A stretch of DNA of 64,000 nucleotides from Armigeres subalbatus (taxonomy: Eukaryota > Arthropoda > Insecta > Diptera > Culicidae). The notes beneath the pieces were generated by a model, which saw only the letters and a program-made list of their open reading frames with translations, did not search any database and was not told where the DNA came from. Positions 3,377 through 61,249 of this stretch are shown here, in pieces (position 1 is the stretch's first letter; each line of letters starts with the position of its first letter). The DNA is taken from the NCBI RefSeq assembly GCF_024139115.2, contig NC_085140.1, forward strand, positions 298,365,978 through 298,429,977, read 5' to 3'. Position numbers and translations under genes: made by a program.

Positions 3377-6300
3377 CTATGATAGAAATTGAGAGAATTT
3401 CGTTTTAAAGTGAATTGTCTAGTTAGATAAAAGCTGTGTTAACGAAGAGTGAGTGGGTAAAAAAAGTTACTGAAATGCTTGCCACATTTCTGTAGCTACA
3501 ATGATATTTTACAGCGTTCGCATTGTTGATTTCTACAGATGTTTATATCTACATCTCATAAAGTTTATAATTTGAACAAAATCAATTAACAGTTTTGCGA
3601 GAGACTGACTAACAAACAAACACTCAACGCATAGCCTATGATGCATTAGCATGGCTTTCGATAACTCACCAGAACACGTAATCGGGATATTCCGTGGCTT
3701 GCCTCAGTTTGCACTCGAGCCGCAACGTTGAACCTTCGTCAATATGCAAATCTGGGGCTCCCACGATGTCCGCAACGGCATCTGCAATTTAGGGAAGAAG
3801 AAAGGTATAAATTATTTTCCCGGTCTGGTACGTACTGTCGGTTCCGCTCGGGCGCCGTCGTTGGCACAAACATTCACATACGTATATTCATATTAAACTG
3901 TTTTGGGAAAGTTCAATTTTCTTCCGTGGCTTATTTTCGGGGGACGTTTAGCAAACGGTGGCTATCAACCAGCGGGTCACTCATAGGTCGTTTAAGAAAT
4001 TGTGAATGATTTTAAACTAGATATGAATAAATCGTAAAAATGAGAACGGGTGGAGTAACGATACTATGTATGTACGTATGGAGAAAAAAAATTGACAACA
4101 TAGAAGCCTGGGGTCGCTTTCTACACGTTTCATTACTTAAGCGACTATTTTTATTATTATTCATATTAAACTGTTTTGGGAAAGTTCAATTTTCTTCCGT
4201 GGCTTATTTTCGGGGGACGTTTAGCAAACGGTGGCTATCAACCAGCGGGTCACTCATAGGTCGTTTAAGAAATTGTGAATGATTTTAAACTAGATATGAA
4301 TAAATCGTAAAAATGAGAACGCGTGGAGTAACGATACTATGTATGTACGTATGAAAAAAAATTGACAACATAGAAGCCTGGGGTCGCTTTCTACACGTTT
4401 CGTTATTTAAGCGACTATTTTTAGGCGAATTTTGAGATGCTCGATTTTTTAAGATAGTTTGGCTAACATAGTCGTAATTTTCTGCTTCTGTTTCTGCCTC
4501 CGTAAACAGGACTGGCGGGTCTATAGTGAGTGACGTTCAAAACCCATCACCAAATTAGGAAAGTATTAGGTTTAGATGAAACGTTTCTGATTTACGTCAA
4601 TTCGACACTAAACACGGTGCCATGAGGCACCAAAGCTCACATTCGCATGGATCACTGGTTATACGAATTCAAAAGAATTCATGGGAATATGGAAATATGG
4701 ATATTTTTATATACTTTTTTTTTTAAGGATATGATCTTTATTGAATTGATGACAATTACGTCATTTTGCTTTTAAAATATCGAGAATTGATCTCTCATTT
4801 TCCTCCAGTAACCTCAGCAACGGTTCCAGCAATCTTCGCGACGTTTCCGGCATTCTTCTTGACCCATTTCCAGGCGTTGCTCAACCATCCATTGGCTACC
4901 TCCGGATCAACTCCATTCTCCACCAGAACTCCGTGCAACTCCTTGACTAATTCTTTGGGCAGTTCCTCTTCGGCCTTGGGCATGGCAACGGCCACAGCCA
5001 CCAACATAGCGAGAACAATGACGAACTTCATTTTGATAGATTGTTTGTTGGGTTGATAACAGTCGAGTACTGAATGTAGATCGGCCTCAATGCAGTGACA
5101 TTTTATAGCGATTTCATATATGTTTGCACAAATGCGATTTATTTAAGATATCAATATTACGAAAAACTCTCTCCTAATATTTGTTTGCGTGTTTGATTTT
5201 ACTGAAATTTCATCTGTCATACATTGGAATAAACAAGTTCGAATTTCATCATGATTTTCAAGCTGTATTCTATTTGTTGTTTTTGCAATTATCGTTTATC
5301 ATCGTGCCGTAATATCAATGTCTTCGGCGAAACCAAATAGCTGAACGGACTTCGTGAAAATCTTACCACTCGTATCAATACCTGTCCTTCATATTACTCC
5401 CTGCAAAGCTATGTTGAAAAGCAGGCACGGAAGACCATCACATTGCCGTAACCCTCTGCACGTTTCGAAGGGAATCGAGAATGCTCCTGAAACTAGAACT
5501 ACGCACATCACCACCGTCGCCTTGAAATCCGTATTCGTGCATTAGCTGCCATACCTGATCTCGATCGATTGTATCATATGCGGCTTCGAAGTCGATGAAT
5601 GGATGATGTGTGGGCACAGTGTATTCGCGGCATATCTGCAATATCTGGCATACGGCGAACACTTGGTCTATGGTGAAGTGTTCGCCCATGAATCCTGCCT
5701 TGTAGTGTCCCACAAACTCTCTTGCAATTGGTGTTAGTCGACGGCATAATATTTGGGAGAGTACCTCGTAAGCGGCGTTCAGCAATGTGATTGCGCGGTA
5801 GTTGCTACAATCCACTTTACCTCCGTTTTTGTTGATGGGACACAAAATAAATTCCATCCACTCCAGCGGCAGAACCTCCTCCTCCCAAATATTGGCGATT
5901 ACCCAGTGCAGTGCTCTAGCCAGTGGCTCACCACCGTATTTAAGCAGCTCTCCTGGTAGTTGGTCAACCCTAGGGGCTTTGGATCACCTTACGCTCGTTC
6001 GTAAGAAGATTTCCGTATATGTCCTTACACATGTCAGGCTGCGGGACGTGGCCCTTACGTAATCGATTCAACGTCTGTGTGTTATTAGCGTGGTACAGTT
6101 GCTTCGTCTCTTCACGTTGTCGATCTTCCTGCTGGTGCTTTTTCCTTCGGAAGATCGATTTTTTTTCTGTTTCGCATCCGTTTGTATTCGTGCCTTATTC
6201 GCTCTGGTACGGTGTTGCAGCAATCTCGCCCATATTGCATTCTTCTCCTCTACTAACTGATCAAACTCGTCGTCATACCAGTCATTTCTCTGATCCGGAG

Positions 6301-9300
6301 GTACCGTGCCAGCTGCAGCGGTTGCGGTGCCGCCAATTTCGGATCGAATATCTCTCCAGCCATCTTCCAGAGAAGCTGCGCCTAGCTGCTCTTCCGTTGG
6401 GAGTGCCATTTCCAAATGCTGCGCGTAGCTGTGGGCTAGTCTACCGTTTGTATCCGCCCATTGTTAAGCGGTGGCGTTCGACTTTATCGCGTGTTGTGCA
6501 CCGTTGATAGTTCGTGTTGTGCCCCGAAGTATGCGTTCTGAGAAATGACCAAAAGCTGACATCAATTTTAAATCCGGAAAAAAACATCGGACACCCCTGC
6601 GCTAAAAGGCTGCCACGCAATTTTGGCCATTTTTTGGACCGATCAAATTCCTGATTAAATTTCGCATAGTTTATGCGTCGTTTCCAATCAAAATATCCAA
6701 AATAATCATTTCCGAAGTATGCGTTCTGAAAAATGGCCAAAAGCTAACATCCATTTTAAATCCGGAATAACTCCAGAACCAAGTGGCCAATCCTGGAAAT
6801 ATAGACGGTCCTTGAAATTTGGATAAATTCCGCTTTTTTGGTGAAAGTTGCGAGAAAAAATGTCGAAAGAAAAGAAAGTTACAACCAAAAAGCTTTTTAT
6901 CTTCGTTTTCAAAGGGGGGTTGGTAACATAAATAAAAAAAATGCTTTTAAATATAAAAAGCAATCAAATTGAATGATTTTGCACAGTTTTAATGATTTTC
7001 AATTTTTTTCCTTGGAAATTTTCTTATTGTTTATTGTTCTTTATTGATTTTTATTTAAAATGAGCAGACCCGATGAACTTCGTCTCGCCTTATATTGGAA
7101 CATTTCTTGTCTTCAAAAATCTGCACATGCAAAATTTGTTTTTTTTTGTTTTTCCAAAAAATCTCTGCATACACATTTTCACGATGATCGATTCAGTAGT
7201 TTCCGAGTCTATAAGGGTCAGACAGGCAGAAATTCATTTTTATGTATATAGATATTTATTTAGTAAAATAAAGTTTTATTTTTAACGTTTAAAATTGTTA
7301 ATATTTATTTATTAGCTGTATGTATTGCTACTTTAATTCGCAGCTTTTGTTCCAAACAGAAAATGGAATTACAAGTTAATAAACAGAATAATTATTTTTA
7401 TTTTTTTTAAATAAGGCAGACTTCACTTTTGGAAAAACAAAAAATCCCGCTAAATAAATTCTTGTTATTTTCTAGAAAATGATATTTCCGGGGAAAATGT
7501 AATATTCGCGAAAATGTTTTCGGGAATTTGTTTGAATCGGTCAGTGAGTTTAGAAGTTACACTAAGTTGAGTTGATCGATAACTAAACAATACCCCTCTT
7601 CCTACACCCTCCCTCTTTTTCAACAACTCTCCTATCTTTACTATAATCATCTTTTTAGGATAGTAGATTAGTATAGTATGTATACTAAATTTGGTGTATG
7701 TTGGTCTTTGGGTTCAGAAATTCAACAGCAATGTTTGATTTTCAAACAGAGCTCTCTCCACAATACCTCTGTTTCCAAAGATCAACTGCCCCCTCATAAT
7801 CACCGTCTCCTGAAGATAAAAATTAAATGTAAATTTGGTTGAGATCGGACAATGCGTCCAAAAGTTATAATTCCACTAGGATTTGATTCTTCCAGAATTT
7901 TTTTTCCGAGAATTCTTCTAGAAATACTCCAGGAAGATTTCCACGAATTTTATCGGATTTTTAAAAAATTACCTGGAACTTTTTTTACAGACATTTTCCT
8001 GAGAATTTTATTAGAATTTCCTCTGGTTATTTACTTAGAAATTTCTCCTGTAATTTTCTAGCAATTCATCCGGAAAGTAATCATGGATTTTTCTAAGCTC
8101 TTAACCTTCCGGGACTCACACCGTTGAAAAAAGTACAATACCTCCGAAAAAATCACGCTTGTCGTTCACAACAGCGGTGGGTCTGCGTGAGTGATTCAGG
8201 ACCATGCGAGTCCCGGAAGGTTAAACTCTTGAAAACTAGCACGAGAACTCTTCAGAAATTTCCTCTGATTTTTTAAAATAAATTTACAAGGAATTCCTCA
8301 AGCCTCTTCCTCTTCTTATATGCATTACATTATCCGCTGGGGCAGTTCCGCCTCGCAGCTTAGTCTTCATTCAGCTTCTGTAGTTATTAACTGCGAGGAT
8401 TCTAAGCCAAGGTACCATTTTTGATTTCGTACACCATGAGGGGAATACACTATGTTACCGCACTGCTAAGGATAGCCTCTCAAGCTCTCCACAGTAGTTT
8501 TCTCCAGAAATCCCATTGCAAACTCCTCCATGAAATCTTCCTCGCATTTCTCCAGAAATTTCAACCTTCAAAGAATATTTCTCTAAAAATCCCCTCTGCT
8601 CCGCTTTTCCAGGGAATTTCTTCAAATATTTTCCCGTTATTATGAGTGGTTTCAAATGAATTTATAGATTCGAATAGGATCGGCTGCTAGAGATTCGTAG
8701 CCAGTCACCTTTTGTATAGCATTAATTTCATGGCCGCGTGTTTCCATTAAACTACGGAGTGTCCAGGTTTTGGTTTGGGTGTATGACATATAAAATCCAA
8801 CAAAATAATACAATATTATCTGGAATGCTTTTAACCGACTGAATTCGCTAATTGGTAAGGAATAATTTTGCTTTGTATTCTACTTATACTCTTCAAAGTA
8901 ATCTTGAACAAAATACCGGCTGACCAGAAGAGAGCACAAAAAACAGAAAATGCACAAAAAACTATATTGAATGAGCATTGAGTTTTAAATCATATTGCAA
9001 AATTAATACTAAAGACGTAAATAATTCAATTAAAAATGACGTGAACTAAAATCAAAACTCTTATGTGATCGGATAGTATTTGGAAAGTAATAGGAGAGTT
9101 GTTCCGTTTTTGAATGATTTTTATTGATATATCTGTTTTGCTTTTTTTTAATAATAATTGTATGCCGGTGACGTTACATCGTTACTAAAACCATTCTCTA
9201 CTTTCCCCCGGTGACCTCAGCAACGGTTCCAGCAATCTTCGCGACGTTTCCAGCGTTCTTCTTGACCCATTTCCAGGCATTGCTCAACCATCCATTGGCC

Positions 9301-12300
9301 ACCTCCGGATCAACTCCATTCTCCACCAGAACTCCGTGCAGCTCCTTGACTAATTCTTTAGGCAGTTCCTGTTCGGCCTTTGGCATGGCGACGGCAACAG
9401 CCACCAGCATAGCGAGAACAATGACGAACTTCATTTTGGTAGATTTGTTTCACTGAGTTGATTGTCACAAGTGAGTACTGAATGTAGATTGCAATGCGGC
9501 GTCAATTTATAGCGGTAACAGGTGATAAAATATTTGTTTGCACAAATGCGATTTATTTGAGGGAGTTTCATAATTGCAAAGAATGCTTTGAACATTCGGC
9601 TTATTAAAAATCTGTGTAAACAATTTCTGCAAAAAATCTCTCTAAAGGTAAATTTTGCACAACAAGATCTGGAAGGCTATAATTTCACTTCACAATATTT
9701 CCATTAGGATTCAATATAAGTTATTAATTTTTGAACTGCAATGTAAAAATAAACAAAATCCCTTTATTTTCACAAATTTAACGATTTGCGATACTTTCCT
9801 CCGACCCGTAAGATTGTCGTTCTATCCGTTAAAACAAAACAAACAACCATGCATGCGTTCACCGTTGTTTTACATGCATTTGTTTTATTGTACACCACCA
9901 TTCGGACGTTTTGTTCCAGGCTCATTTTTGAACATATTCTAAATGTGTTAGAAGTCATCAACACTTGGTTGTTTTGAACAGGATATCATTGTGAAATGTA
10001 ACTAGTTTTGTAAATTTGCATCTACACGTTGAAATGGTTAGGAATTCTTGTTTATATTGTTGAAAACATCGAAAATGTTTAAGTAGTGCATTTTGATCTG
10101 TTATACCCATAAATTGGGATTACTGTGCCGGTGCTTTATATCGTAGCTATTTCTTACGAATACAAAGGAAATGTGTCAAAATAATAGATAGGAATGTAGG
10201 AAAAACTGAAATTTTCCACATTTTGATGAAACATCTATCATTTCGGCGAGGCAAAACGCCCTAGAGGAACTATCCTACAATGTACTCGCGTCTCCACGCA
10301 CTGTCCATACCACAATGTTGATGCGCCGACGCGTGGTACGTTGTTCCCTAAGAGCTGCTGGCTAAAAGGCGTTTTGCCTCATGAGTTTTCCGGGAACGAA
10401 ATATCACCACTTTTTTTAAATGTGAATATTATCAATATGATTGAGATTTTTTCTAATTTTAGTATGGCATCAGCTAGCTATATTGTTCAACTGTTGCGTG
10501 AGGTAGAAACACCCATGAAAGTCGTTATAGCTAAGGCATAAAAGCAGTCTATGCTTAGCTAGGGCATATTGCCCCTCCTTTCCCTATTTGTTTCGCGATA
10601 GCCCCGTTCGGGTTGGATAAAGCACCAGTCTAGCGTACTGAGGGTCGTGGGTTCAAGTCCCATCTAAGGGAAAGTGGTTACCTTCAATACATTTTTCAAA
10701 TCAATATCTTCCAAATAATGTAGGGACACGGCAGGTATTTCCGTCCTTCGTCGTAGGGGCTAAAACCAACGAAAGCAACGTACATTTGCTAGAACTCCAC
10801 TATAGCAGAACGTTTCTTCTGAGCTTACGATTTGGTATGTATGAGTTTTACAAAAAAGCGTCTCTTTTATTGGTTTTCGAGACTATGACGAACAGACGAA
10901 AATACCTGCCGTGTCCCTACATATTCACATCTGAGTTTTCAGAACATTGTAAATTAATGTCCTAGTCGGATGATTTAATCCCCGGAAAATAGGCAATTAA
11001 CTTTGATTGAACCCCCCTTTGGGTTGTCAATACTCGAAATATCAAAAAGTGCGTCTAATCAATACATTAAAATTATTTACATAAGAAAGTCAAAAGACCG
11101 ACGTCATGAAATTGTCCGTACACTGAATAGGGTAAAATGCCCAATAGTGGAACCCCTAGTATCGGAATTTTGCTCTTCCTGTCATAAGGCTTAAAAATTT
11201 TCAACATATTGACCCTGCTCTTTTTTTTTTTTCTCCCCCACACCAAAAGGCTCTGGATGAGCCTCCTGGTAATGGACACTCAATTCTCAGCCATAAAGCA
11301 AAACGCGGCAACAAAATTTAAAAAAAACTACACTAATTCAATTTTGGCTGAGAATAATTTAATTCAAAATACAAATCTACAAATGAGAGAATAATTACTA
11401 TTTATACAAAAAAATCGTGCCTCTAGTGGATTAAGCATCCCTTTAAAGAAGCACAAATGAAAAACAATTAAACAAGATAATATACTTAAAGTAATAATTA
11501 CGAATTAGTTTATGTAAATGTTGGTGACGGACTGTTAATAAAGAGATAACGATGAGGAAATGAAGAGTTTATATTAATAATTGAGGTAAGTTAGTTCTTA
11601 AGAGACGTTATATGTTGGCTTTGAAGGATAAACGATTGGTTATCAATTGAATATCTCTGGGTAAATTATTATACTTGGCAGGACCTGCGAAAGTAAACCT
11701 TTTCTGACCAAAACTTGAATGTGCACGAGACATAGCTAAATGATTACTCTGTCTTGTGTTACGTATTTGGGGTACAACCTCAAAAGTTATATTATGAATT
11801 CCGATTGGGTTATGTAATATATTATGAACCATTAGTAATGTTTGCTCCTCACACATACCTTGTAACGGCAGTATTTTGTGTGGAAAATCAGTGTATAGCC
11901 CTATGGTTGGATACAACAGAGGTAGATTAAAAATTATCTTAATACAACGATTTTGTAGTGTTTGTAGTTTTTTTAGTTTGGATTTACAGGCTCTACCCCA
12001 GACTATTATCATGTAATTCAAATGAGAATGAATATGAGCGAAATAGAGCAAAAGCATAACTTTTCGCGGGACGAAACTACTAATACGTTTCAAGACTCCG
12101 CACATGGACCAAACTTTTCCAGCAATTTTTTTAATGTGTTGATCCCAGGATAAGGTACAATCTAAAAGGATACCAAGGTATTTAAAAGCCTGTACATTAT
12201 CGATTATAACATTCCCAAGCATGAGTTCCGGTAGAATTGGAAGAGAATTTCGTGGGGATCGAAAAATCATGTATTTTGTTTTCTGCAGGTTGAGTGAAAG

Positions 12301-15300
12301 TAGGTTGTCGGAAAAATATATCTGGAGGGTTTGCAGGTCATTACTCATATTTGAAATAACTGATCTTGGATCAACATTAGGATAGAATAAAGCAGTATCG
12401 TCTGCAAACAGCCTGGGAGTGCCAATAAGTCCAATTTTCGTTATATCATTTATATATACAAGAAATAGCAGGGGTCCAATATTGCTTCCCTGTGGAACAC
12501 CAGTGGTGATTCGTTTACGACAACTTATCTCTCCATCATATGACACGTATTGAGTTCTGTTTACTAAGTAACTCTGAATTATGTTATTGCCACACCTCTT
12601 ATTCCATAGCATTCTAGCTTACGTAGTAAAATGTTATGGTTTATGGTATCGAAGGCTTTTTTCAAGTCTAAAAATAACGCTCCTACATATTTTTTTGAAT
12701 CTGTTTCTTCCAGTACTTTATCAACGAGTTCAGTTATTGCTATTGTTGTACTGCTTCCATTTCGAAATCCATATTGCATGCTGTAAAGTATATTGTTACG
12801 ATCAAGAAAGTTAACAATACGAGTTATTAATAATTTTTCGAGAATTTTAGTAAAAACAGAAAGAGTCGAGATAGGTCGATAATTGTCTGTATTCTGGGGA
12901 TCCCCTGACTTAAAAACAGGAATTACTTTGGCAACTTTTAAGCAATCTGGATAAACACCCGTTTGGATCAAAAGATTAAATATATCAGACAGAATTCGGG
13001 AAAAGGATATTGCATTATTCTTGATTGCCTTTACTGGGATACAATCAGGACCAGGACTTTTATTATTTTTCAATTGATGTATTATTGAAACAACCTCATT
13101 TGCTGATGCGGGCTGTAAAAAAATAGTATTCGAAACCGGTTCAATATGCCTTTCAGGGTTTGAACATGATGGGGTAATATTTTCTGCCAAATTTGAGCCA
13201 ATCGTTGAAAAATGGTCGTTGAAGGCTTCACATATAAGTTTACTGTCAGCTACACATTCACCATTGACATTAAGTTTTACCATTTTCTTTTTGTCTGATC
13301 TGCCGATTATCGAGTTAATATTTTTCCATAATTTTGAATGAGAAGTGTTGATCAACAAGTCTTCAAAATATCTTTTTTTGCTTGCTTTTTAGCAACATCA
13401 AGCTTTTAGATACATGCTCAAACATTTCCGCTAAACGCATGTTGCCAGGATCACGACGAGATTTCTTTAAATAATTGCTCTTAATTTTTATAAGTGTCCA
13501 TAAATGCAAGCTCATCCAAGGACATTGGGTTCCTTTAATGTTATCGTACTTTGTCATCGTTTTAGTACAATCCTTCAATAGTGCATCATATTTAGATGAA
13601 ATGTTTTGCAAACACATGTTCGCGTCCCGAACAGGCCCAAAGGTATCAATGTATCTTTCGAATTCTCTATCTAGTCTATCATGATTCACCACCGTTTTAG
13701 ATAATTTTATGCGATGAGAGCCAAGCTTTATTCTAAATTCAGATAAAATTAAACAATGGTCACTTAAGTCATGAAATACAGTGTGATTACTTAGTCGATG
13801 AACATCAGACATTTTACATAAAACATGATCCAATATGTTTGCGCTAGCAGGTCTCGTAACACATGTATTTGTACACATAAAACTGTATGACTCTAATAGA
13901 TACTTATATTTAAGCACAACGTTATTATTTGACAAATTAACAGGCACATTGATATCTCCAAAAATAAGACAAGGACGAGTAGAATTGTTTTTATTAAGCC
14001 AACTTTCCAAAGAATCGTGAAACGCATTAAAATCATAAGACGGTGGACGGTATACACAATGAATGTCAATAACTTCTCCTTTCAGCACTAGTTCAAAATA
14101 AATATGATGGAAACCCTCAATACACACGTTTTCAATTATTCTGAATTCCATATTATCTCTTATATACACAGCAAGTCCGCCAAATGATCTGTTTCTACAA
14201 GAAAATATACTATTATAGCCTTTGATGTTATACAACCACGTATCTCCATCCTTTAACCAGGTTTCCCCGACAATAATAACGTCAATCGGAGCAGTAAAAT
14301 GATCTAGTGAAGTTAATAATTTATCAAATTTGTGAAGGTCGTTTATTCCTCGAACATTCCACTGTATGACACGTAGTTGATTCGGACATATTCTATTACA
14401 CGACAAGTTAAAATCATCGATATGATTATGAAAATAATTTAGTGTTTGATACATTATTACATATATTTAAGAACACACAAACATAATTGACAATATAATA
14501 AATTAGGAATAAAATATTTGAACATAAAAAAGTTAGTTTTGATCATTCTTTTTACGCTTCGGAGATGGTGTTTGCTTAGAATTTGCAGAATATCGGTCAA
14601 TTAAAGTTTTCAGATCATCCCTAGTTTTGATTAAATCTGGCTTAGAATTTTCATCCTTTTTACCAACACACCACCTCCTCTTGCAGGCCATACAAACTTA
14701 ATCTTGAAAGATTCTTGGTATTCGCGCATTTTTCGCAGAAGTTCCATTGACAACGACGTTAATTCATCTCTTATAGTTACACGTGAAGCTCTCCCGTTAA
14801 TAACGTACGATTGATCTACATTAGTTGAAAGAATCGTGCCCATTTCACGTTTGCGGTTCAGAACCAGTTGCTTTATATTTTAACCTTGAAGGCAATCTGA
14901 ATTGGAATCGGTACATTCGGTTTGTTAGTAACATACAATCGTGAAGCTGACACGATCGAGTTTGGTGGCAAATTGATTCCAATTTGGGCAAATGTTTTAT
15001 CAACCAGGGTCAAGGTATTTTCATTCATAATGTTCGGAAGCCCTAACAACACTGCGTTAATTGAAATGGCTCTTCGATCCGACTGATCGACGTTAGCTTC
15101 CAACTGGTGAACAAAGCTAGTAAGCTCCAAGTGCGATTTAGATAAATCGTTTAGTTGCTGTTTTAGGTTTTCGTTTTCAACTTTGAGGTCTTTGAAGTCT
15201 GATACGATTTCATCAAACTTCGCAGATAAAAATTCTTGCGATTTTTCTACCGCTGTGGTAACCGAACGAACCTCAGATTTAACGTGGGTCAGCTGATCAG

Positions 15301-18300
15301 CTACCACACTAGCAACAGTTTCTTTCAATTCAGAAGCTAGTAAGCTCATCATTGACGATCTGCTATTCTGAATATCAACGATCCGCTTATATATTTCGGA
15401 ACAATTTGGTGTGCAAAAGTACATGTTAGCTTTTGCCCGGCCTATAGCGCTACCTATGATGTTCCTGCACTTAAAGTGAGCAGCGGAGAAACAATACATA
15501 CAACAGATAATTTTATTAGAATCCTGCTCTTGCTTCTTGCACACGACGCAGCAAACGATATCGTTATCCATATCAGCAGCTGTTAGTGAAAATAGAACAG
15601 AATAAAAACAATAACATGAATAGAAAGGGTCTAAAATTTATTGAAAAGTATTGACTATACAAAACATTGATCTTGGTGGATTCAAATCACAGGCTATTAG
15701 TTTGGTACAAGTTTAATATCAAGGAATACTGATAGCAAACTTAGTTTGTACTATTTGTCATGCAGAACAAAAACCACTGCTAAGCAATCAACATCTCAAT
15801 GATCCCCCGATACTACTTGAAACAAGGCTGATAATCCGTTTACTTTCATTCGGTTTTTTTACTGAATCAGTTGCTTCTCTGACCACAGCCACCTCTACTT
15901 GTATGCAACCTTTTTGAGCATAGCCGCATACAGAGAAACTGGCCCTTGCCTTCCACAACCGAAACACACGAGAGTGAATAGTGACGTACTAGAATAACTT
16001 CGATATCTATTAAACTCATCAGATTTCATACCATCATATTACTTTCGTCAAGCTGATCGATTAGTCGTTCGTTCGGTATAATCCAAAACAGTGCTTCTCC
16101 GACCAAAGCCAACTCTATAATGCATACAGACTATTTGAGCGTAGCCGCATACAGTGAGATAAGCTCTTGCCTTCCACAGCCGTACCACAAGTGTGTGCAA
16201 GATAACGTACTAGAATAGTTTCGTGATTGTACTCAGCCTAATCACTTTCCGCCAAGAGACCGCCAATGAGAGAGTAGATCTTTCAGCAGCAGCATCAACA
16301 ACAACAACAACAGCAGCAGAAGCGCTTTATCAAGGAAGCAGTACTAAAACAACTACAATTATACTATCAATCGTCACTTGATAATAAACTTATATCCAAA
16401 TTTAATCGCCAAATATCTAACGCTTGATATCTAACAACAAGCTCTGCATCCCCTCTTCACGAAACATACATAAAACACCCAAACACACGACGTTATTCGT
16501 TGAAATCAACATTTTAAAGTCTAACTGAATTTGCCCTATAGTAGACCCCCTGGGGGTCCATAATAGGAAATTGCTTCCCTATAGTCGACACTTCATTTGA
16601 TTTTCATGTCCCGTTTCGGGATGTTCTTCTTTCCTATTATGGACCCCCCAAAATATTCCTATAATGGACACTCTCGTGTTTATTTTTTATAGAATTGTTA
16701 AAAATCATCTAATTTTACTTTCCATAGCATTTCCAATGCATGTAATCAAATCATAGGACTGTAAGGTAGGTTCTCCCGATAGAATTTCATAGTAAAATGT
16801 TGACATTGTGCAGTAATAATGCAAAAATGGCTGGAGGGTCCACTATTGGTTGGGGGTCCACTATTGGGCACTTTACCCTACTTTACATAACACGAAAAAT
16901 AATCAAGAATTGTGGCAGAAGCTTGCCTGAAACAGCTGGTTTTAGTAATCTGTCGTGCTCGTCGGTACAGTACGTGATGCAAAATCAGATAACTTGTTTT
17001 GATGTTGTGAAATCGCCGATTGTGATTACTTAATTTTATATCCTTTTGGTTATTTTAACGGTTAAAATAACAAAGAAAAGAAAATGTTTACTGTGACTTC
17101 AAATCGAAAACTATTCCTGCAAAACAAAGACTAATTTGGACAATTTAGAAATCTACTGTAAAATGAGATCAAAATATATTTGAAAACAAATTATGTTTGA
17201 TGTCAAAATCAAAATATGTTTTCTATATGCTGTCATCATGTTTTCAGACTTTGCTCGGGTACTGCTCCCGGAACTGGCCGTGAGCCGAGGCTTACTGACC
17301 ATCACAACGCATTCTTATCCATGAAAATAGGCGAAAATCTAAGGTTATGTAGTGTCTCTAAGCTTGCTGATAGCTTGTTGCTGTGTGTAAACGTCGAGGT
17401 CAGGCCGGAGAGATTTTTTAGAAATTGTTTACACAGATTTCCAGTAACTCAAAAGTTCAAAGCGTTCTTTGCCATGTTGAAACGCTCTATCCGAAATAAA
17501 TCGCATTTGTGCAAACAAATATGTTATCACCTGTTACTGCTATAAATTGACGCCGCATTGCAATCTCCATTCAGTACTCACTTGTGACAATCAACTCAGT
17601 GAAACAAATCTACCAAAATGAAGTTCGTCATTGTTCTCGCTATGCTGGTGGCTGTTGCCGTCGCCATGCCCAAGGCCGAACAGGAACTGCCTAAAGAATT
17701 AGTCAAGGAGCTGCATGGAGTTCTGGTGGAGAATGGAGTTGATCCTGAGGTGGCCAATGGATGGTTGAGCAACGCCTGGAAATGGGTCAAGAAGAACGCA
17801 GGAAACGTCGCGAAGGTTGCTGGAACCGTTGCTGAGGTCACCGGAGGAAAGTGAGATAAAGATCTTTATGGCGGTGTAATGTAATTGGCATGAAATGATT
17901 ATTCGAAAAGCAAAACAGAAATAGAAATAAAAATCATAGGAAAATAAAAGCGTAACGTTACAGCATAGCATGGTATTACATTTCAGATACTATTCGATCA
18001 CATAAGAGTTTTGCTTTCATTTCATTTAAATTAAGATGAAAATCTATTTCATTGAATATGGGGCCGGATTTAGCCAAACGGAGGTCCTAGGGCCGACCAG
18101 TAGGGGGGGCAGGGGTTGCTTTTCTTACCAAAATGTACAAAAAATGTTGGTTTTGGGGCCAAATCAGGCCCTGATTGGATCCCATGTTGATCTATCACGG
18201 CTTTTTCAATTTATTAATTTACGTCTACAGTATTAGTTGTCCAGCCGGATTCAAAATTTAAATGCTTATTAGTGTTTTTGTTAAAGATTATTTTGAAGAG

Positions 18301-27300: not shown

Positions 27301-30300
27301 GATAGGTACAATAAATTTCGATTTGATTGAATAAAAGCTCATTAAAAGCTTACAGTACTTATGGAGTTTTAACTTGTATTTCCATTTTAATAATAAAGAG
27401 TGTTTTTAGAAATCCAGTTAAAATGATTGACACCTAAATACAAACAAATAGATATTTGATGTAATTTGTCGTTTGAGTAGAACTTATAATGCAACAGTAC
27501 TCGTAACAAACATACATAACACTTATGAAAATTTCATCGTTGACGTTTGCTCACTACCGCAATCTGGTTCGTGATTTGCCTCACTTAGTTAAAACACCAT
27601 ATGTCGTTAGTGCTTGTACGACGATGAATATTCGATGTGTTATGTATGTTTGTCTGTGGTCACGATTGTATGCAATGTTTGAAAACATCAGAAGACACTA
27701 TTCGACCATTTCTCATCCGAATTTCATAGTCGCAGTTGTTCAAATAAAGCGCAATAGCTATAAAAACTGAGCCATTTTGCAGTTTAGCTACATTCAGTTC
27801 TGAACTGCGAGAGTCAACCCATCGAAAAGATATCTATCAAAATGAAGTTCGTCATTGTGCTTGCTATGTTGGTAGCCGTGGCCTTCGCCATGCCAAAGGC
27901 CGAACAGGAGCTGCCCGAAAACCTGGTCCAGGAGCTGCACGGAGTTCTGGTGGAGAATGGAGTCGATCCCGAAGTGGCCAACGGATGGTTGAGCAACGCC
28001 TGGAAATGGGTTAAGAAGAACGCTGGAAACGTCGCGAAGATTGCTGGAACCGTTGCTGAAGTAACTGGAGGGAAATAAATAATGCGAAACAATAATCCTT
28101 AATATTTGAATAAAACTATTTTGAAAACAATTTGAAACAGTTTCATTTCACTTGTAATATGGAAATTATCAAAATATCCCTCGCGTCTCTGAGCTACTAC
28201 TATTCTGAGTTACTTCTTTCTTTATGCAATTTGACAATTTGGCGATTCGCACAGGATTATTTGTGCTTTGGCATCACAGGGGACAAAAGGGGAAAGATGC
28301 AGTAGCTCAAGGCATTCTTCCGGATGTTACTCCTGGTAGTCTTGCGGAAATTCTTCTAGAAACCCCTCTAGAAGTTCCTCCACATCCAGAAAATTTTCAA
28401 GAATTTCCAAAAGTTATAAGCCACCAGCCTTCCAAGTTTCCCGTTTGTAGATGGGTGGCTTGAGCGCCACTGTCAGCAGTTTGTAGGTTTTTCGGGCCTG
28501 AGACCATTCAGAGGAATGGGTTTAGCTTTTTAGAACTTGATAAAGTACCTAACTGGCTGACGATCTAGCTGCTTTCGATTCGAAAATGGTCAAGAGCCGA
28601 TATCAGGTCGACTTACCCAGTGAATAGGAAATAGTAAACCTTCTAAAGCTACTCAACTAGTTGTTGTACATTTATTCCCGTTCGTACTCTTACTGTACAC
28701 CCGCTTGCAACTTGAAGCAACGAAAGTTAGACTGGTGGGGAGTGCATCGAAGACAACTGTGGTCATAAACAAATTTACACCCGTACCAAATGCGTCATGC
28801 ACAAAACGGATCGGTGCTTATGATCTAAGAGGTCCATGTGCAGCTGTCTTGCAAGTACCATTGCAAAGTACCCTATATAATCTGACTCTTTGGGCCAGAC
28901 ATTTAGGGATCGAGTTTTCACCGCAAAAAAACTCAGTTGGTTGTGTTTATTAGGAAGCGGTACCCAGCTCAACTGAAACTAAAACTGTTGAATGATGATA
29001 CAAAAATGCCGGAAAAGAATCAATTTTCTACGTTCTATCTCCGGAACATGGTGGGGTGCTCACCCAGAAGACCTCATCAAACTCTATAGAACGACTATTA
29101 TCTATGTTTTAGAGTATAAGTCCTTCTGCTTCCTCGCAGCAGCTGACTGCCACCTGATCAAAATGGAACGAATTCAGTATCGTTGTTCGCGTATTGCCCT
29201 TGGCTGCATGCATTCAACGCATAAAGGCTCCCCCAGACCTAAGCGATTGCATCGCCGCGACGGCGACAACTAGTCGCCGCGATTCTATCGTTGGGTCGCT
29301 GCAAGCAATTTGGTATTTACGCTTCCATATTACCGACGACAGAATCGCTGTCGCCAAGCGATAGAATCGCGTCGCAACTGTCGCATCGCGTGTGTTTGGG
29401 GGAACCTTAACATGAGCATGGAGGTGCTTGCTGGAGTCACTCCTTTAAAGCACCGTTACTGGGAGCTCTCACTTACAATACTCGTCAAATGTGGAACAAG
29501 TAACACACTTGTCTTAGATAACCTTTACTGTACCGACCTATTTTTTTCAGTAACTTTTTTTCCTTCAATCTTCTCTAACTTGGTCAAAAACCCACCGATT
29601 TTCATGCTTCTGGTATTGTTGGATCCAGAAATTCATATAGTTTTCGTTCCCGGAATTTGGAGACGGTCCGTAATATATTTCCGGAGATATTCCGGATTCC
29701 GTTGAGGTAATAGATTTTGGCATGGAAAAAATCCTTTTCTCAGCAATTTAATGATTGTAAAATATAAATTCATCGACAGATGTTATAATACTTAAAGCAG
29801 AATGACCTCATAGATTCCCTATGAATATTATACCACTTTGGAAGTACCTGGTGCCTGGTACCCTGGGGGAAGTGGCCACTTACCAACCCAATCGAAACAG
29901 GCCTTGTGACGTTTCAAACTTCACGATTTTGCAATGCAAGTGCATTCCTGGTCATTCCAGGCATTATATTTCTGTCTCTGTCCATCTGGCCATGTCTCCG
30001 GACCAGGTACCCTCGGGGAAGTGGCCACTTATCAATCCGAATCGAACAACGTCATGTGACGTATCAAACTTCATGATTTTACAATTCCAGTTCATTGCTG
30101 GCAATTTCGAATAATTTATGTCTGTGTCTTTCTGGCCATATCCCCGGATCAGGTGCCCTGGGGGAAGTGGCCACTTATCGATCCGAATCAAACAACGTCA
30201 CGCGACGTATCAAACTTCATGATTTTCCAAAACCAGTTCACTGCTGGCAATTTCGTATAATTTCTGTCTGTGTCCATTAGGCCATACCCCGGACCAGGTG

Positions 30301-33300: not shown

Positions 33301-36300
33301 TCAAACTTCGAAAACGGAAAATTTTCGCTTGAGAGTGAAAATGGCACTTTTTTATGATAGAAATTTATTTGAATAATTTTTCGACATAGATACAATTTGA
33401 ATCACAAAGTTCATAAATCTGAAACCCAAGAATCATCTCGAAACTTGAATTTGTTCAAAATTCCGAAAAGCCTAAACAAGAAGTTCGAGTTACCAAAATA
33501 GTAAAAATCTTTAAAAAAAATTTCTTCGAATGTCTCGAATGTCTAAATTGAATTGTCATCACAAAATATTTTGGAAAATGTTCAAGTCTTTATCGGAGCA
33601 TATGTCGAGAGACCATTCATTTTGCTCCTTACGGAAAAAATGAAATAAACCGTTCTATGAGAGATCCCTTTCGTAAAAAATGTTCACCTCCTAAGTCCTT
33701 TGCAGAATCAAGCAGTATTTTATTTTTTCCCATTTTGTTTAAAAAGAATCTTTTGTTTCAAAATATAAAAAGTAAAACATATAGGGGAAAGGTTTGGCAC
33801 TTCATTTCATAGCTACCATTGCCATCCCATCACAAACTGAGCAATGAAAAGAAATTTGATTTGTTTATTATTTTGGGGAGGTTTTTTCAGCAGTGAGCAC
33901 GCATATTGACAAAAAGAAGCAAAGAAATTGCCGTATTTCCTTGTTTAGCGATGAAATGAATATATGTTCAGTGAGATGGAGATCGGAACTGTTCCCTTAT
34001 GTTATAAAAAAAGTTTTTTGGTTTTGGTTATGCACTAATTGGCATTAGATCAAGCCATCGTTCACTAATGATTTGCCCGACACAACAGGGAACTATCTGA
34101 AATTGTGTAGGATTAAGATGAAAATATCAGAATTTATTAAAAAGATGAATCGGAATACTCAACAGTTCAATTGATAAGGTGTAGAGTTTATTAGTTTTTA
34201 AAAGAAATTTTAGAAAAAGCAGGGTCTGTTATTAGCCTTGTGAATATATTTAGAATCTTAATTCCCTGTGTGGTCAGTGTAGTGGTCATTTTTTTCTAAA
34301 TCCACCATTTCATGTCCGTCTTGAATAAAGCAGCTTCCGACGAATAAAGTTTCAAATTTTTCATTTTTTTTACATTACGCGACGATGTTCTTAACGAAAC
34401 CGAATTGAATGTTTCAAAATAGTTGAAAATAGTGACTTTTTCCGAGAAAAAGTGACTTTAGTGACTTGAGGTCGAAAAAAAGGACTTTTTAGTGACTGAC
34501 CCGAAAAAAGTGACCAAGTCACTAAAAAGTGACTCGCTACCAGGCCTGTGATCCGGACTAGTTGCCCTGGGGAAAGTGATCACTTGGGCAGTTCAAACTC
34601 GAAAATGTTCGATAATCCCAGGTCCCATATCTGTATTAGCATCTTTTTGACATTCAAGGAGTCCTGGCAAATATTCAAGGAATTTTACAATCCCAATTTC
34701 AATCACAAAAATAAAAAAATAAAAAATAAAATCCCAGTTCAAACTTCTAGTACCTGTATAAACTAAACCAGGTCCCAACGCACCATCTGTTTATCGATTT
34801 CAAGGCGGCATACGACAGTAGAGCTATAGAAAATTATGGACGAGAACATCTTTCTTGGGAAGCTTACAAGACTGATCAAAGCAACGGTGGATGGTTTCAA
34901 AAGCTGTGTAATGTTTCGGGTGGAAACTCCAGTTCGTTCGAATCCCGCCGGGGACGATGACAAAACGATGAAGCTTTGTGCCTGTTGATCAACATCGCGG
35001 AGGGCCGGGTGTAGCAGCTGGGGTACGGTTTTCAACAAATCCAGTCACTTTATTTGTTTTGCGGATGATATGGACATTGTTGGACAAACATTTACAAAGG
35101 TTTCAGAATTGTACACCCGCCTCAAACGTGAAGCAACAAAAGTTGGACTGTTGGTGACAAAGTACATGCTAGTGGGCGGAAAAAAAGATTCACGCCCGTT
35201 CCAAATGTACCATGTACAGAACGCTCATACGGACATTAAAATTGAACCACGCTCGGAAAGCACTTTGAGGTAATTTGGTAGGTAATTTGGACTATTTGAG
35301 AGTAGAGTGCTTAGGACCATCTTTAGCGGTGTGCAAGAGGACGGTGTATGGCGGCAAAGGATGAACCACGAGCTCGCTCAACTCTACGGCGAACCCAGGG
35401 GTGGCATTGCGCACCTAGACTCGAAACGAGCAAACCATGCAAACTGTCACTGTCAAGAGTTATCGAAAGAAGATGCGCAATGGAGCCTCAGTATCCTGAA
35501 GGTAGCGAAAGCTGGAAGGGCAGTCTAAATAAATGAATGAATAAACTCAACTTGAGCTTGGTGACAGTACATTTCGTAGATGCTACTCCGTGATTGACTA
35601 GCATGAGTGAATAAACTGAACTAGTGAATAAATAATTAGTTTTTAATTGGTTTCTCATTATTCTAAGGATTTTTTCGAGTTATTTTAAGGAAATCTCTCG
35701 CGAAATACTAAGGAATTTCCTCCAGACATTTTGCGAAACTATTTTGAACAATTCTTCGCAATTTTCTCGGGAAATCTTGGGAATTTTATCAGGAAGTTTT
35801 TCAGAACTTTCATTGGGAACTCACTCGCGAGTTTTGTGAGAATTTCCCCGGGAATGCATTGGAATATCTACGGGAAATACAGAATTTTCTTTGGAAATTC
35901 CTCAGGAAATTCTATGCATGTCCCTTGAGAAATTATTGGAATATTTGGTCGGTAAATTCATTGGAACTTCCACGGAAAATGATAAGTGAGTGACCACCAG
36001 AGCACCTGGTCCAAGGCACAACCAAATACACACATAATGAAATTAATATAAAAAAAATCAGCAGGGAACTGGTATTGCAAAATCATGAAGTTTGGTACTT
36101 TGCATGACATTGTTTGATTCGAATCGATAAGTAGTCAATTCCCCTAGGGCATCTGATCCGGGGCATTGCCAGATGAGCACAGACAGAAAATACACGAAAT
36201 TGCGTGCAAAGAAATGGTATTGTAAAATCATGAAGAATGATACGTCGCATGACGTTGTTTGATTCGAATCCATAAGTGGCCTCTTCCCCCAAGGCACCTG

Positions 36301-39300
36301 GTCCGAGGACATGGCCAGATGGACACAGACAGAAAATATACAAAATTGCCAGCAGTGAACTGGTTGTGTAAAATCATGAAGTTTAATACGTCGCATGACG
36401 TTGTTTGGTTCGGATCCATAAGTGGCCTCTTCCCCCAAGGCACCTGGTCCGAAGACATGGCCGAATGGACACAGACAGAAAATATACGGAATTGCCAGAA
36501 ATGCACAGGTATTTAAAAATTATGAAGTTTGATACGTCGCATGACATTGTTTTATTCGAACCGATAAATGGCCACTTCCCTAAGGGTACCTGGTCCGGAG
36601 ACATGGCCAAATGGATACAGACAGAAATACAATGCCTGGAAAGACCAGGAATGCACTGGCATTGCAAAATCGTGAAGTTTGAGACGTCCCAAGACCTTGT
36701 TTCGATTGGGTCGGTAAGTGGCCACTCCTCCCAGGGAACCAGGCACCAGATACTTTCAAAGCGGCCTAACAATCACAGTGAATCTATGAGGTCATTCTGC
36801 ATTACGTATTATAACATCTGTCGATGAATTTATATTTTACAATCATTAAATTGCTGAGAAAAGAGTTTTTTCCATGCCAAAATAATCTATAACCCCAACG
36901 GAATCTTGAATATCTCCGGAACCATGTTACGGACCGTCTCCAGATTCCGGGAACGAAAACTATATGAGTTTTTGGATCCAACAATACCAGAAACATAATA
37001 ATCGGTGGATATTTGACAAAGTTAGAGTAGATTGAAGGAAAAAAAAGTTACTGAAAAAAAAATAGGTCGGTACAGTAAAGGATAACCTCGATAAAATGCT
37101 TGAACTGACTTGTCGTTTCCTTAGATTCCTTAGAGTCTATCTCAACTACATACACACTTAATTTTTTTCGCCGAGATCTCAGCATTGTTTGTTTATTTTT
37201 CCGAGGTGGGCACCGCCGAGTTTCATCAAACATGATTTTTGCCGAGATTTCAGTAAAAGTGACATTTCATATTTTGCTGAGAATCAGTAATAAACGAAAT
37301 TTTCTGCCGAAGTTCAGTTTGGGAATTTACTAAGCTACAGCGGTGCCCAATTTTGCTGAGCTCGAAATAGAAAAAGTTAGTGTGTATCTTCAGATCTTTG
37401 TCTTCCGTGTTATAATCTACCTCGAGTTCACATCACCAACGTCAGTTCCTCAATTGAATACGATCTGTCCATGAAACACGCTATTCAAGGAATACCAGAT
37501 CATCTTCGACAAATATCTATTCCCTCTCTTTTTTCAGAAAAATTTGAACATATCAATTGCAACAACAGATATTTCACTCATAGTTCTCGCATCAATGGAT
37601 CCACTGGCTTCGGTGTTTTGAATGTAACTTCCAGGGTTCGGATTTCTCACTCACGCACGCGACAACTGATCACTCCACCATGCATTTTATTCGGATAAAT
37701 TACAGTGCGATAAACTCCGGCACAAGCGATGGTGCGAAAAAATTGTTATCCTTCTTCCCATGCTTCATGAAAATCAAATGCCGCTTGCTTTGCCACTCCA
37801 AGCTGATTGAATCTAACGATGCGCCACGATAAGCAAAAGGTTTAATACAGGAGTTTTTCCGTTCGCTTTCAATCAATTCATGGTGGTGTGGTTTTAGTGG
37901 GCACTCTGAACATTTTAAAATTGTTTTGGGTTCGAATCCCGTTGCGGTCCTAAATTTTTGTAAATATGCTTGTAAAATTTATCCGATGAGGCGACGAGAA
38001 GGAAAATTTGTGGATTAAAATTAAATTATCCGGCGATCTGGCGCTCACGAATTTATCACCCGCCATTCTATCCGGATAAAAATGTTGTGTGAGAATACTT
38101 CCTCACAGGGGGACCATGAAAAATCACACTCCGCTAAATGGATTAATCGCAGGTTTTTATTCATATGAGTGAGAATTCCGAAGCCTGGTAACATAAACCA
38201 CCTTCCGAAAGCTTCAGGAACCGTGTTCGGTTTATGTTGCTGAGCTGGCAGAAATTAACTTCGCTTTGGGGATAATTTCAAATCAGCCCGTAGACCATCG
38301 AGGCACTCCGGTCGATGAAACCTGTTAAGCACGCATCTTACTTTCTTACAAACATAAGAGAGCAGATGCGTGTTTTGGTCGAAAGATCATTCAAGATTAC
38401 CTTTGTTTGGGTCCCATCTCACTGCTCAATCTACGGCAATGAGAGGGCAGACTCGCTGGCAAAGGTGGGCGCACAGGAGGGTGAGGTTTATGATAGACAA
38501 TACTCGAGCAACGAGTTTTTCCTATTAGTTAGTCAGAGTACTCTTCAAAGTTGGCAAAGAAATTGGACACACAATGAACTTGGACGGTGGCTATTTTCCA
38601 TAGTTCCAAAAGTTTCTGGGCGAGCGTGGTTCAGAGGTGAGGACTTAAGTCGAGGCTTCATTCGCGTGATGTCGAGACATATGTCTAATAACTATTCACT
38701 AGACGCACATCTGTACAGAATGAACCTTGTCGATAGCAACTTATGTAGGTGCGGAGCCGGTTATGATGACATCGATCACGTAGTTTGGTCCTGCTCGAAA
38801 AATGACGCCTCCAGAGAGCAATTATTGGATACCCTTGTGGCCCGAGGTAAACAACCCTTCAGGGAAGTTCGAGGTATTTTGGGGGATCGTGATGTTGTCT
38901 ATATGCAGGCCATTTATAGCTTTCTTTGTACTTCTGACATCAAAATCTAATATTTTGTTCAAAGTTTTTTTTTGTTTAATCTCTGACTTTTTGTTCCGTA
39001 GAGCTCCTTAGCTCTTGCCATCCGGAAGATGCTCCCAGTCGGAACACTCCTCGAGCACGACGACACGCCACATCGTCCCTGACGCCAAATGCCCGGATGA
39101 GAACCTGTAATTACCTGATCCCAAATTCTAAGCCCCGTCCATCCTTGAACATTGTAAGCTAACCACGAGTACGCTGGCTTCTACCTCTCTCTTACTAATT
39201 GTATTCTAAAATGATATTGATTGTATATATCACAAAAAACCATGGCTCCGTAAAGTGTTATACACGCCTGAGCCTACCAAATAAACGAACTTGAAACAAA

Positions 39301-42300
39301 TGTTGTACAGCAACCGTACAAAAATGGTGTTCGCTTCCCGGAAGGTACAAGAAGGCGTGGAGCGAAGTGAGCAAAGTTAGCTGACCAGGAACAGAACGAC
39401 TTGGTGAACATGGGGCGCAATCGAGGATAGAGATGGAGATGTAGCCTCGAACCGTGTATTGTGGTGTCACATGGTTGATTCAGCGTCATCTGTTTAGATG
39501 TAAGCTAAATATATGAAATGAAGTTTAACTTGCAGAATTGCCGTCTGTGGCAGATATTGTTTGAACATGGTTCGTCGGCAATGCTGATAAGTCGTGCAAC
39601 GCTTGATAAACTAGAGATCAAGAAAACGAAATTGTCAACCTCGTTTACAATGGCGATGTTCTTCCGTTGCACTCGAGATTGTGATAGCGAGGTTTGGCGT
39701 GCAGAAATACAGTAGTCGATCGGGACATGTGGTCCATCCATTACTTCTTAACTCTACAACATCGAAACGTGACCAGATTCAATACGCGAAAAGTCAAGAT
39801 TTTCCAAGCCATAAGAAATCGATTGATTGTTTGGAGAATTGCTCCAACTCCGGAATCCGGATGGTAAATAGGATAATAATAAAAATCCATTTTTTCATTT
39901 ACTTGTAATAAATTGGTATTTATTGATATACATATCATGTGAAGACTAAAGGAAGCTCGCAAGTGCTTTAAATAGTGCAATATTCCATTATCGTGGTTGG
40001 ACCTTAATTAGAAAGTGAGTGAGGGAGTGCGATCATTACTTTCCACCAGTGACTTCGGCAACGGTTCCAGCAATCTTCGCAACGTTTCCAGCGTTCTTCT
40101 TGACCCACTTCCAGGCGTTGCTCAACCATCCATTGGCCACGACCGGATCGACTCCATTCTCCACCAAAACCTCTTGCAACTCCTGGACTAATTGCTTTGG
40201 CAGTTCCTGCTCAGCCTTGGGCATGGCGAAAGCCACAGCCACCAGCATAGCGAGAACAATGACGAATTTCATTTTAGTTGAGATTTTAGTTGGTTGTCAC
40301 GAATGAGAACTGAATGTGGATTGTAATGATGAGGAAGCTACAATTTATATCCACTGATTGGTGTGTTTAAACAGGTGTGACTTGGGTTAGGTATCTATCC
40401 ATATACGCAGAATCAAATCTGTTATGTCTGCAAATAATTTCTGGGTTGTTTGTATATCTTTGCCAAACGATATGGTCTGTTGTGCACCTGTGTAATTCAG
40501 TATTTAAAATAGTGCAATTTTACTTTCAATTCAATCATTTGCGTCACAACTCACAATCCCACGTTCGAAGAAATGTGTCTATGGAATTATGTAATCTCTG
40601 CTGATCAACCAATCAGTTTGATAATGTGTGCACGTCTAAAAAAGGCAAGATTCCAAATATTGAAAATCGGGAAATCGTTTAATTTGATATATAGTTAGCC
40701 GTGCGGTAAGACGCGCGGTTACTACAAGACCATGCTGAGGGTGGCTGGGTTCGATTCCTGGTGCCGGTCTAGGCAATTCTCGGATAGGAAATTATCTTTA
40801 CTTCCCTGGGCATAAAAGTATCATCGTGTTAGCCTCAAGATATACGAATGCAAAAATGGTAACCTGGCTTAGAAACCTCGCAGTTAATAACTGTGGAAGT
40901 GCTCAATGAACACTAAGTTGCGAGGCGGCTCTGTCCCAGTGTGGGGATGTAATGCCAATAAGAAGAAGAAGAAGTTAGCAGCTTTGGCTAAATGTAGACA
41001 TCAGCAATCTTATGTGGTGCGAACTTTATTCGGATCGATTGAAGCATTAAAAAATCCTGCAGTGGTTGAAAACCTTGTCACGAGTTATAACATTCGTTAT
41101 TTAACGTATCACAGATAGAAGATCATCCATAACTTTTTCATCGGCGCAATGTGGATTTTTTAAAGTTTTTTTTCTCTCGTTCCCGAGCCAGTCAGCAAAA
41201 CTGATTTACGATAGCCGTACGATGTTATTTAATTGAAATCGAATGTTGACGGTTCTGCTCGTGCTCTGTCTACTCACCTACAACTTTCAGCTCGACAAAC
41301 ACCGACTGCACCGGGTGCACGGACAGTTGGCATTCGTACAGGCCCTGGTCTTCGTCCCGAACGGCCTTGATCCGCAGCGCCCAATGACCCATATGTCGGA
41401 TGTGGTGCACCAGGAAGCGCTCGTCACTGCTGTATGTCGATAGTCCTACGGTTAACAGTTGGAAGTCCCTTCGTCTCACCCAGGATACCTACGAAAGTGG
41501 GAAGAGTTGCGAAGTCAGAAAATCAAACCGAAATGTATGGCAGCGGAAGGAGGGGTCGCAGTAGCAGGGGTTTTGTTTGTTTTCTGCTACTGAAAGAGGA
41601 GTAGTCGCGAGCTCAAATGCTTACCAGGGCGGAAGTTTGTGTCAGTACGGTGCATGGCAGCAGTGCAGTGCCGCCCTTTTGTGCCGTGACTTTGGTATTG
41701 TTTCGGGTTGCAAAATATGCCTGTGACATTGCCGGTGCCAGATAGTTGTCCGACAGAGAGCTGGGATCTGGAAAGACATAATGGAAAACGTTACATTGTT
41801 GATGCAGGGAAATGACACAACCGACCTGAACAGTCAACAAGAAGTAAAATAGAATCAATTCTCAATTGGGCAATTTTTGTGTTTGTAACACTTTTGGTAG
41901 ATAATTGTTTGCTCTGATCAACACTTTTCAGTCAATTGAATTTCTATACAAAATTCATTTGATTTTTTTACGACGAATTCATCCCAATTTCAATAAGAAA
42001 TTCATTTGAATTTCTAGAAAAAAAACCCAGATTAATCCACCTAGCGGTGATGGCGCCTTTCTCGCGGAAAAAGGTAATAAATGTAGCCTTTACGCTTACA
42101 CCTCGATGATGTACAAGAAAGGCAAAACAGTTACACCGTCTAATGTTATGATAGAAAATTTACACTAGTAGACGACAGATGGCGCTGCCAAAATATTCTC
42201 TAATTTCCTATGTTCGAATTTTGACTTTCGGACAATTTCATAGTACACTGGATTTTGTTTTTACACGATTTACATTTTCTCAATTTTCCACTCATCCTAA

Positions 42301-59800: not shown

Positions 59801-60480
59801 TATGAGCTCCACGGTACCTCGTAGCACCATTACAAACACACTACATACTTCGTTCAACATCTACGACTCTCCAAACTATTCTTGAGTACATATCTTAGTT
59901 CTCAAATCGATTAACATGAAAATCCTCGATGTCCCTACTAGTTTCATTAGTTGGAATAGCTCCACGGGACTTCAATACACCATTACAGACACATTACAGA
60001 ATTCGGTTAATATCAACGACACGCCAAATTGTTCTTGAGCACAGAACTGAATATTCAAAACGATCAACACGAAGATCTTTGATGTCTCAACTATTTCTAT
60101 GAGTTGGAATAGCTCCAAGGTACCTCGTAGCACAATTTCAGACACAATACAGAATTCGTTGAACTTCTACGATACTCCAAACTGTCTTTGAACACAGATC
60201 CTAATATTCAAATGGATCAACAAGAAGATCTACGATGTCCCCTCTATTTTTATGAGTTGGAATAGCTCCGCTGTACCTCGTAACACCATTACAGACACAC
60301 TAGATACTTCGTTCGACATCTACGACTCGCCAAACAATCCTTGAGTACAGATTTTAATATTCAAATCGATCAACATGAAGATCCTCGATGTCCCTACTAG
60401 TTTAATTAGTTGGAATAGCTCCACGGGACTTCAATACACCATTGCAGACAAACTACAGAATTCGTTCAATATCTACGAAA
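59801..60480. repeat. tandem array A, about 4.5 units of 153 bp
   Basis: The anchor 'agctccacggtacctcgtag' or a variant occurs at about 59803, 59958, 60111, 60264 and 60417. Units share 'caccattacagacacacta', 'caaatcgatcaacatgaaga' and 'cctcgatgtccctacta'. Confidence 0.9.
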
Positions 60481-61235: not shown

Positions 61236-61249
61236 TCCCATGGGGTTCC

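Follow-up and report, generated by a model that had tools for sequence, protein, structure and literature searches.

Five small, probably secreted peptide genes nested within one intron of a Dpr-like gene in Armigeres subalbatus

Introduction

What are the five near-identical small genes that lie within a single intron of a Dpr-like gene in the mosquito Armigeres subalbatus, and what kind of product would they make? The locus lies on contig NC_085140.1, of which a stretch of 64,000 nt (the window) has been analysed, and the original prediction, made from this sequence, described a family of small secreted Trp/Lys-rich peptides. Our analyses indicate that the five copies are selected genes, neither chance reading frames nor dead copies, whose only protein relatives in our searches are two hypothetical proteins of Aedes albopictus. 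We tentatively read their predicted product as a helical membrane-active peptide of the host-defence type.

Identification of five selected gene copies

Uninterrupted, single-exon open reading frames (ORFs) of 78 codons are present in 5/5 copies, at the positions where five intact genes had been predicted. They encode putative 78 amino acid (aa) precursors and comprise copy 1 (protein P0002; 4795..5031, minus strand), copy 2 (P0001; 9198..9434, minus), copy 3 (P0003; 17618..17854, plus), copy 4 (P0004; 27842..28078, plus) and copy 5 (P0005; 40036..40272, minus), each identified from its ORF together with the selection counts or, for copy 3, the pairwise comparison. The proteins are 91–99% identical where compared (92–99% to that of copy 2), and 9 of the 78 residues, as read from the five-copy alignment, are variable (viz. 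residue 15 in the signal region, residues 22, 26, 27, 30, 33, 34, and 44 within residues 17–44, and residue 67 as the one variable residue among the 34 of the tail, residues 45–78). Copy 3 is nearest to copy 2, from which it differs by 7 nt. A tblastn search of the window with P0001, P0005 and the two Ae. albopictus relatives (P0006 and P0007) returned 55 rows and no sixth copy, all other rows having E values of at least 0.24.

The protein is held under strong purifying selection. The ratio of replacement to synonymous substitution rates (dN/dS) estimated by the Nei-Gojobori method (NG86) is about 0.02–0.09 in all 10 pairs of copies, synonymous changes being far above replacements, and within the tail each pair shows 0 or 1 replacements vs. 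3 to 10 synonymous changes. Neutrality is rejected by binomial counts in 10/10 pairs, with P values ranging from 9.3e-4 (copies 2 and 3, the closest) to 8.7e-14 (copies 4 and 5); these pairs are non-independent, the pairs 2/3 and 4/5 having no branch in common if the distances reflect the tree (no tree was built). Chance ORFs are ruled out by the identity of the repeats and by these counts.

The 100 nt upstream of the genes are related in 8/10 pairs (z 3.4 to 71), whereas the five other flank bins show clear relatedness solely between copies 2 and 3 (up to -200 and in the 200 nt downstream), together with three weak cells at z 2.5–3.1. A blastn comparison of the flanks (+/-3 kb) found nothing common to all copies beyond the promoter and coding region, only short pair-specific repeats; target-site duplications were not searched. 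The relatedness of the proximal upstream sequence, and not of the other bins, shows that the genes were copied at the DNA level together with their core promoter. The pair formed by copies 2 and 3 is the only recent one.

Core promoters and polyadenylation signals

A motif scan agrees with the prediction that every copy has its own TATA box, initiator and poly(A) signal: in 5/5 copies TATAAA and TCAGT precede the ORF and AATAAA follows it. Some copies hold a second TCAGT, and the initiator was taken to be the one within the common CATTCAGT context. The core promoters, from TATAAA to A+1 of TCAGT, extend from 5107 to 5071 in copy 1, from 9511 to 9479 in copy 2 and from 40349 to 40311 in copy 5 (all minus strand), and from 17541 to 17573 in copy 3 and 27759 to 27796 in copy 4 (both plus). 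From the first T of the TATA box to A+1, copies 2 and 3 thus span 32 nt, whereas copy 1 spans 36 nt, copy 4 37 nt and copy 5 38 nt, these three exceeding the usual distance of approximately 30 nt. The AATAAA signals are located at 4737..4742 (copy 1, minus), 9120..9125 (copy 2, minus), 17926..17931 with a second at 17943 (copy 3, plus), 28109..28114 (copy 4, plus) and 39919..39924 (copy 5, minus); that of copy 4 begins as early as nucleotide 31 past the stop codon.

Upstream of copies 1–3 there is also a block TCGCATTTGTGCAAACA, starting approximately 106–117 nt before the ATG and more loosely matched in copies 4 and 5, in which a candidate E-box adjoining a forkhead-like site can be made out by eye. 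Forkhead-like RYMAAYA motifs number 8, 5, 3, 4, and 2 in the 500 nt upstream of copies 1–5 (window mean 2.1, sd 1.8) and E-boxes 4, 8, 6, 4, and 6 (window mean 3.6, sd 2.7); these counts are uncorrected for local composition and support no conclusion.

Characteristics of the predicted protein

Residues 1–16 are hydrophobic and signal-like, ending in AxA with A14 and A16 in 7/7 proteins (five from the window and two from Ae. albopictus), and AlphaFold2 (AF2) places a hydrophobic helix at residues 2–16 in a model of low confidence. These residues are probably a signal peptide and the product is probably secreted. Charges were computed for six of the seven proteins (all except copy 3). Among the four copies from the window the net charge of residues 17–44 is -4 to -6, and across the six proteins it goes down to -8; the tail has a net charge of +4 in all six, both Ae. 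albopictus proteins included. In the two proteins whose tails were subjected to a shuffle test, the maximal hydrophobic moment of the tail is 0.53 (P0001; 36 of 5000 shuffles as high) and 0.48 (P0007; 103 of 5000).

Two predicted helices flank a turn, GVDPEVAxGWLS, which is conserved (copy 5 having V in place of E44). The AF2 model based on seven sequences has helices at residues 26–38, 43–59, and 61–75 (mean predicted local distance difference test score, pLDDT, 69.9; predicted template modelling score, pTM, 0.50), its confidence peaking at residues 31–50 around the turn (block pLDDT 83) and being poor at the end. The model of P0007 is similar and weaker (helices 26–38 and 43–80; mean pLDDT 62.4). 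In copies 4 and 5, Tandem Repeats Finder detected that the codons of the tail repeat with a period of 21 nt; copies 1–3 have no such entry at the threshold of the program. This period corresponds to 7-residue units (KNAGNVA/KIAGTVA) of the pattern x-x-A-G-x-V-A, of which two can be recognized by eye in the tail of P0006 and three in that of P0007.

Relatives and family searches

The original prediction had called for protein and profile searches, and these brought to light relatives in Ae. albopictus but no match to a well-characterised family. Two protein searches covering about 5.8 billion sequences, from which relatives without any common 5-residue word would escape, gave 1 candidate with a single sequence and 104 with an alignment (A1) as query, and the sole relatives among them are the Ae. 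albopictus hypothetical proteins RP20_CCG004970 (P0006) and RP20_CCG004971 (P0007), which are 59–66% identical. P0006 was found with the single sequence at E 2.1e-18 (92% of the query covered) and with the alignment, of which it is a member, at E 6.5e-38; P0007, which lies outside the alignment, was found at E 3.5e-35. No Ae. aegypti protein was among the results. The five window proteins were themselves not returned, so that they seem to be unannotated.

The two relatives (78 and 82 aa), which are probably neighbours given their consecutive locus tags and the equal length of their longest contig (299,899), share with the window copies the signal region, the acidic segment, the GVDPEVAHGWLS turn and the +4 tail, but differ from them in tail sequence, in the number of 7-residue units and in having one Trp (W49) instead of three. 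The label "Trp/Lys-rich" therefore suits the window copies, in which W49, W54, and W56 are present, and not the Ae. albopictus relatives.

That no named family had been recognised from the sequence is borne out by searches of Pfam (copy 3 excluded from the scan of the window copies), NCBIfam, PDB sequences and Foldseek, which found no credible family. The profile matches obtained (viz. BRCA-2_helical, E 0.018–0.027; DUF4479, E 0.036–0.14; DUF5826, E 0.044; and, in NCBIfam, ATP synthase subunit B, E 0.021, with two more weak matches) are far below the curated cut-offs and were rejected. The top PDB sequence match of the family profile, the bacterial UPF0352 protein 2jr2 (residues 19–63), misses the limit of 0.001 at E 0.0082, and none of the 58 PDB fold matches that Foldseek gave at E ≤ 10 (best E 1.3) reaches E ≤ 0.001. 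Scans of IMG/VR and GTDB contigs yielded 91 and 47 pattern stretches, respectively, none of which is a relative. None of the papers listed from the open-access literature, a scope that leaves outside most subscription journals and all preprints, deals with the peptide family as judged from the title and the opening of the abstract.

Interpretation and alternative explanations

We propose that these small, single-exon genes belong to a lineage-restricted family, which has grown to five copies by DNA-level duplication within one Dpr-like intron, each copy carrying its own core promoter motifs. The predicted precursor would consist of a signal peptide (residues 1–16), an acidic segment (17–44) with one predicted helix, a turn, and a +4 amphipathic helix (45–78) built partly of 7-residue units, and the acidic segment would keep the product soluble and harmless as long as the tail has neither been released nor come into contact with a membrane. 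A helical peptide that acts on membranes and is shielded by an acidic segment would be expected to show just such a charge split and such an amphipathic tail with Lys/Ala/Gly/Val repeats. We infer transcription, secretion, processing, membrane activity and an antimicrobial role, and regard a secreted helical membrane-active peptide of the host-defence type as the leading, though tentative, interpretation.

A number of observations weigh against this interpretation. The predicted secreted chain of approximately 62 residues is close to neutral, its net charge being 0 to -2 in the four copies from the window and -4 and -3 in the Ae. albopictus proteins, so that cationic action would need cleavage or charge segregation. 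The predicted precursor layout holds in its acidic middle and its basic, amphipathic +4 tail, but a release site is lacking: none of the seven proteins has a KR or RR convertase site, and the single KK, at residues 58–59 in the window copies and 55–56 in P0006 and P0007, is out of register between species. The amphipathicity of the acidic segment is ordinary (933 of 5000 shuffles as high), the overall confidence of both AF2 models is low, and kB-like sites are absent from the 500 nt upstream of all copies (0/5 for each of two patterns; background 0.02 and 0.22 per 500 nt). Estimates of dN/dS by YN00 (about 0.04–0.21 in the nine computable pairs, i.e., without copies 2/3) lie above those of NG86, and upstream homology is weak between copies 1 and 5 (z 2.6) and copies 4 and 5 (z 1.8). 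Between species, lastly, the turn GVDP-VA-GWLS is better kept than the tail, which would suit a folded domain equally well.

The near-neutral chain, the lack of a convertase site and the conservation of the turn over the tail would also allow a small helical protein with a fold of its own, in which the whole chain, a helix-turn-helix core with a variable tail, would bind a partner or lipid and would not be a precursor. The most confident part of the model is residues 31–50, the block best kept between species is GVDP-VA-GWLS, and no convincing cleavage site was found, all of which favours such a protein; it has, however, no cysteines, no PDB fold match at the limit given above and a pTM of only 0.50, and the number of tail repeats varies between relatives. 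We consider it less likely than the leading interpretation, although the most serious competitor. Proteins secreted in semen or saliva are often encoded by small genes that are confined to one lineage and have been duplicated locally, and a somewhat less probable alternative is that of a signalling family specific to a tissue such as the salivary or male accessory gland, with lineage-specific duplication. PMC1790711 describes duplicated salivary genes that have a single exon and are known from Aedes only, which is in keeping with this alternative, but no sequence feature points to any tissue and the nearly identical tails are unlike those of diversifying arrays. The several retrotransposon ORFs in the window and the occurrence of the copies in both orientations might suggest functionless mobile-element copies or retrocopies. 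The under-representation of replacements in 10/10 pairs and the flanks, which share nothing across all copies outside the promoter and coding region, render this highly improbable, and retrocopies, which would lack a promoter, are rejected since the promoter region was duplicated along with the genes.

The peptide family seems to be undescribed, though an example of a familiar kind, since small secreted peptides that are lineage-restricted and arose by local duplication are well known and nested genes likewise. It is doubtful, though conceivable, that it constitutes an undescribed mosquito effector family in which the active tail gains and loses 7-residue units upon a fixed helix-turn core, with a private cluster in the intron of a neuronal-type Dpr-like gene and possibly coupled regulation. 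If the genes are expressed and their products active, they would represent an overlooked family of mosquito secreted effectors with a bearing, depending on tissue, on immunity, saliva or reproduction; small intron-nested genes are easily missed by annotation, which makes a case for re-examining long mosquito introns.

The host gene and other elements of the window

The predicted placement of the cluster within one intron of a Dpr-like gene has proved correct. The host is a minus-strand Dpr-like immunoglobulin (Ig) gene, a relative of Ae. aegypti AAEL000103, whose exons were placed by tblastn of nine Dpr-like proteins (seven of them from named dipterans) with their ends read by eye. In the direction of transcription these are a probable signal-peptide exon near 50473–50363, an Ig exon near 41767–41625, the exon preceding the intron (41278..41488; part of an Ig domain, 100% identical to AAEL000103-PA across 70 aa), the exon following it (3670..3781; part of the second Ig domain) and a further exon at 3376–2787. 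The 37,496-nt intron (3782..41277), which begins with the donor GTGAGT and ends with the acceptor TTGCAG, contains the five genes together with their promoters. The ORF of the His-rich exon matches an Ae. aegypti protein at only 76% identity, the match covering 89% of the ORF.

The host intron also contains a non-LTR retrotransposon (11608–15571, minus strand) with endonuclease and reverse-transcriptase ORFs, a PHD-like/coiled-coil ORF (weak, under the Pfam cut-off) and, in another frame, an ORF at 12579–13283 that appears reverse transcriptase-like by eye, as well as a tRNA-Ala(AGC) gene or tRNA-derived element (25577–25651, minus strand; Rfam 48.9 bits; ARAGORN). Tandem arrays of an approximately 146-nt unit at 29857–31155 and 36059–36740 are mutually inverted and approximately 5 kb apart, the inverted arms reaching 29555 and 37045. 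Elsewhere in the window are arrays of an approximately 153-nt unit (59805–61255) and two inverted arms of 248 nt (43994–44241 and 45031–45278), which are separated by 789 nt, show 97% complementarity and may be a fold-back element or one with terminal inverted repeats.

Comparison with known peptide systems

Small salivary proteins known only from Aedes and annotated as secreted (viz. the 9-kDa "WWW", "basic tail" and 7.8-kDa proteins) are reported in the part of PMC1790711 considered here; the window peptides are likewise small and predicted to be secreted, a likeness of description only. Neither this part nor the corresponding part of PMC13267129 prints sequences of the window family. The flanking dibasic KR or RR sites of prohormone and neuropeptide precursors are absent from all seven proteins. 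With insect cecropins the window peptides have in common a small, in their case probably secreted, precursor bearing an amphipathic helix of positive charge, and where the secreted chain is expected to begin they have X-P/X-A dipeptides (MP-KA, MP-QP, MP-KP) that resemble cecropin pro-pieces. Unlike in cecropins, the cationic part is C-terminal, follows a 28-residue acidic part and has a charge of only +4 within a near-neutral chain; the six proteins (secreted chain 0 to -4) lack the highly cationic mature peptide of cecropins, those of Ae. albopictus being described as highly cationic, with +9 in the rows of PMC13267129 used here. The Pfam Cecropin profile gave no match at E ≤ 1 for four of the five window copies or at E ≤ 10 for P0006 and P0007, and no cecropin structure is among the PDB matches at E ≤ 10. 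Precursors of the frog dermaseptin type consist of a signal peptide, an acidic propiece and a cationic Trp/Lys/Ala/Gly amphipathic tail, an arrangement to which the predicted layout of the window peptides is similar, although they differ in having no Pfam match and no KR site, and in that between species their turn is conserved most while the tail diverges. The amphipathic cationic helix characteristic of linear antimicrobial peptides as a class is found in the window family, as indicated by the hydrophobic moment of the P0001 tail and, at low confidence, by the tail helices of the AF2 models.

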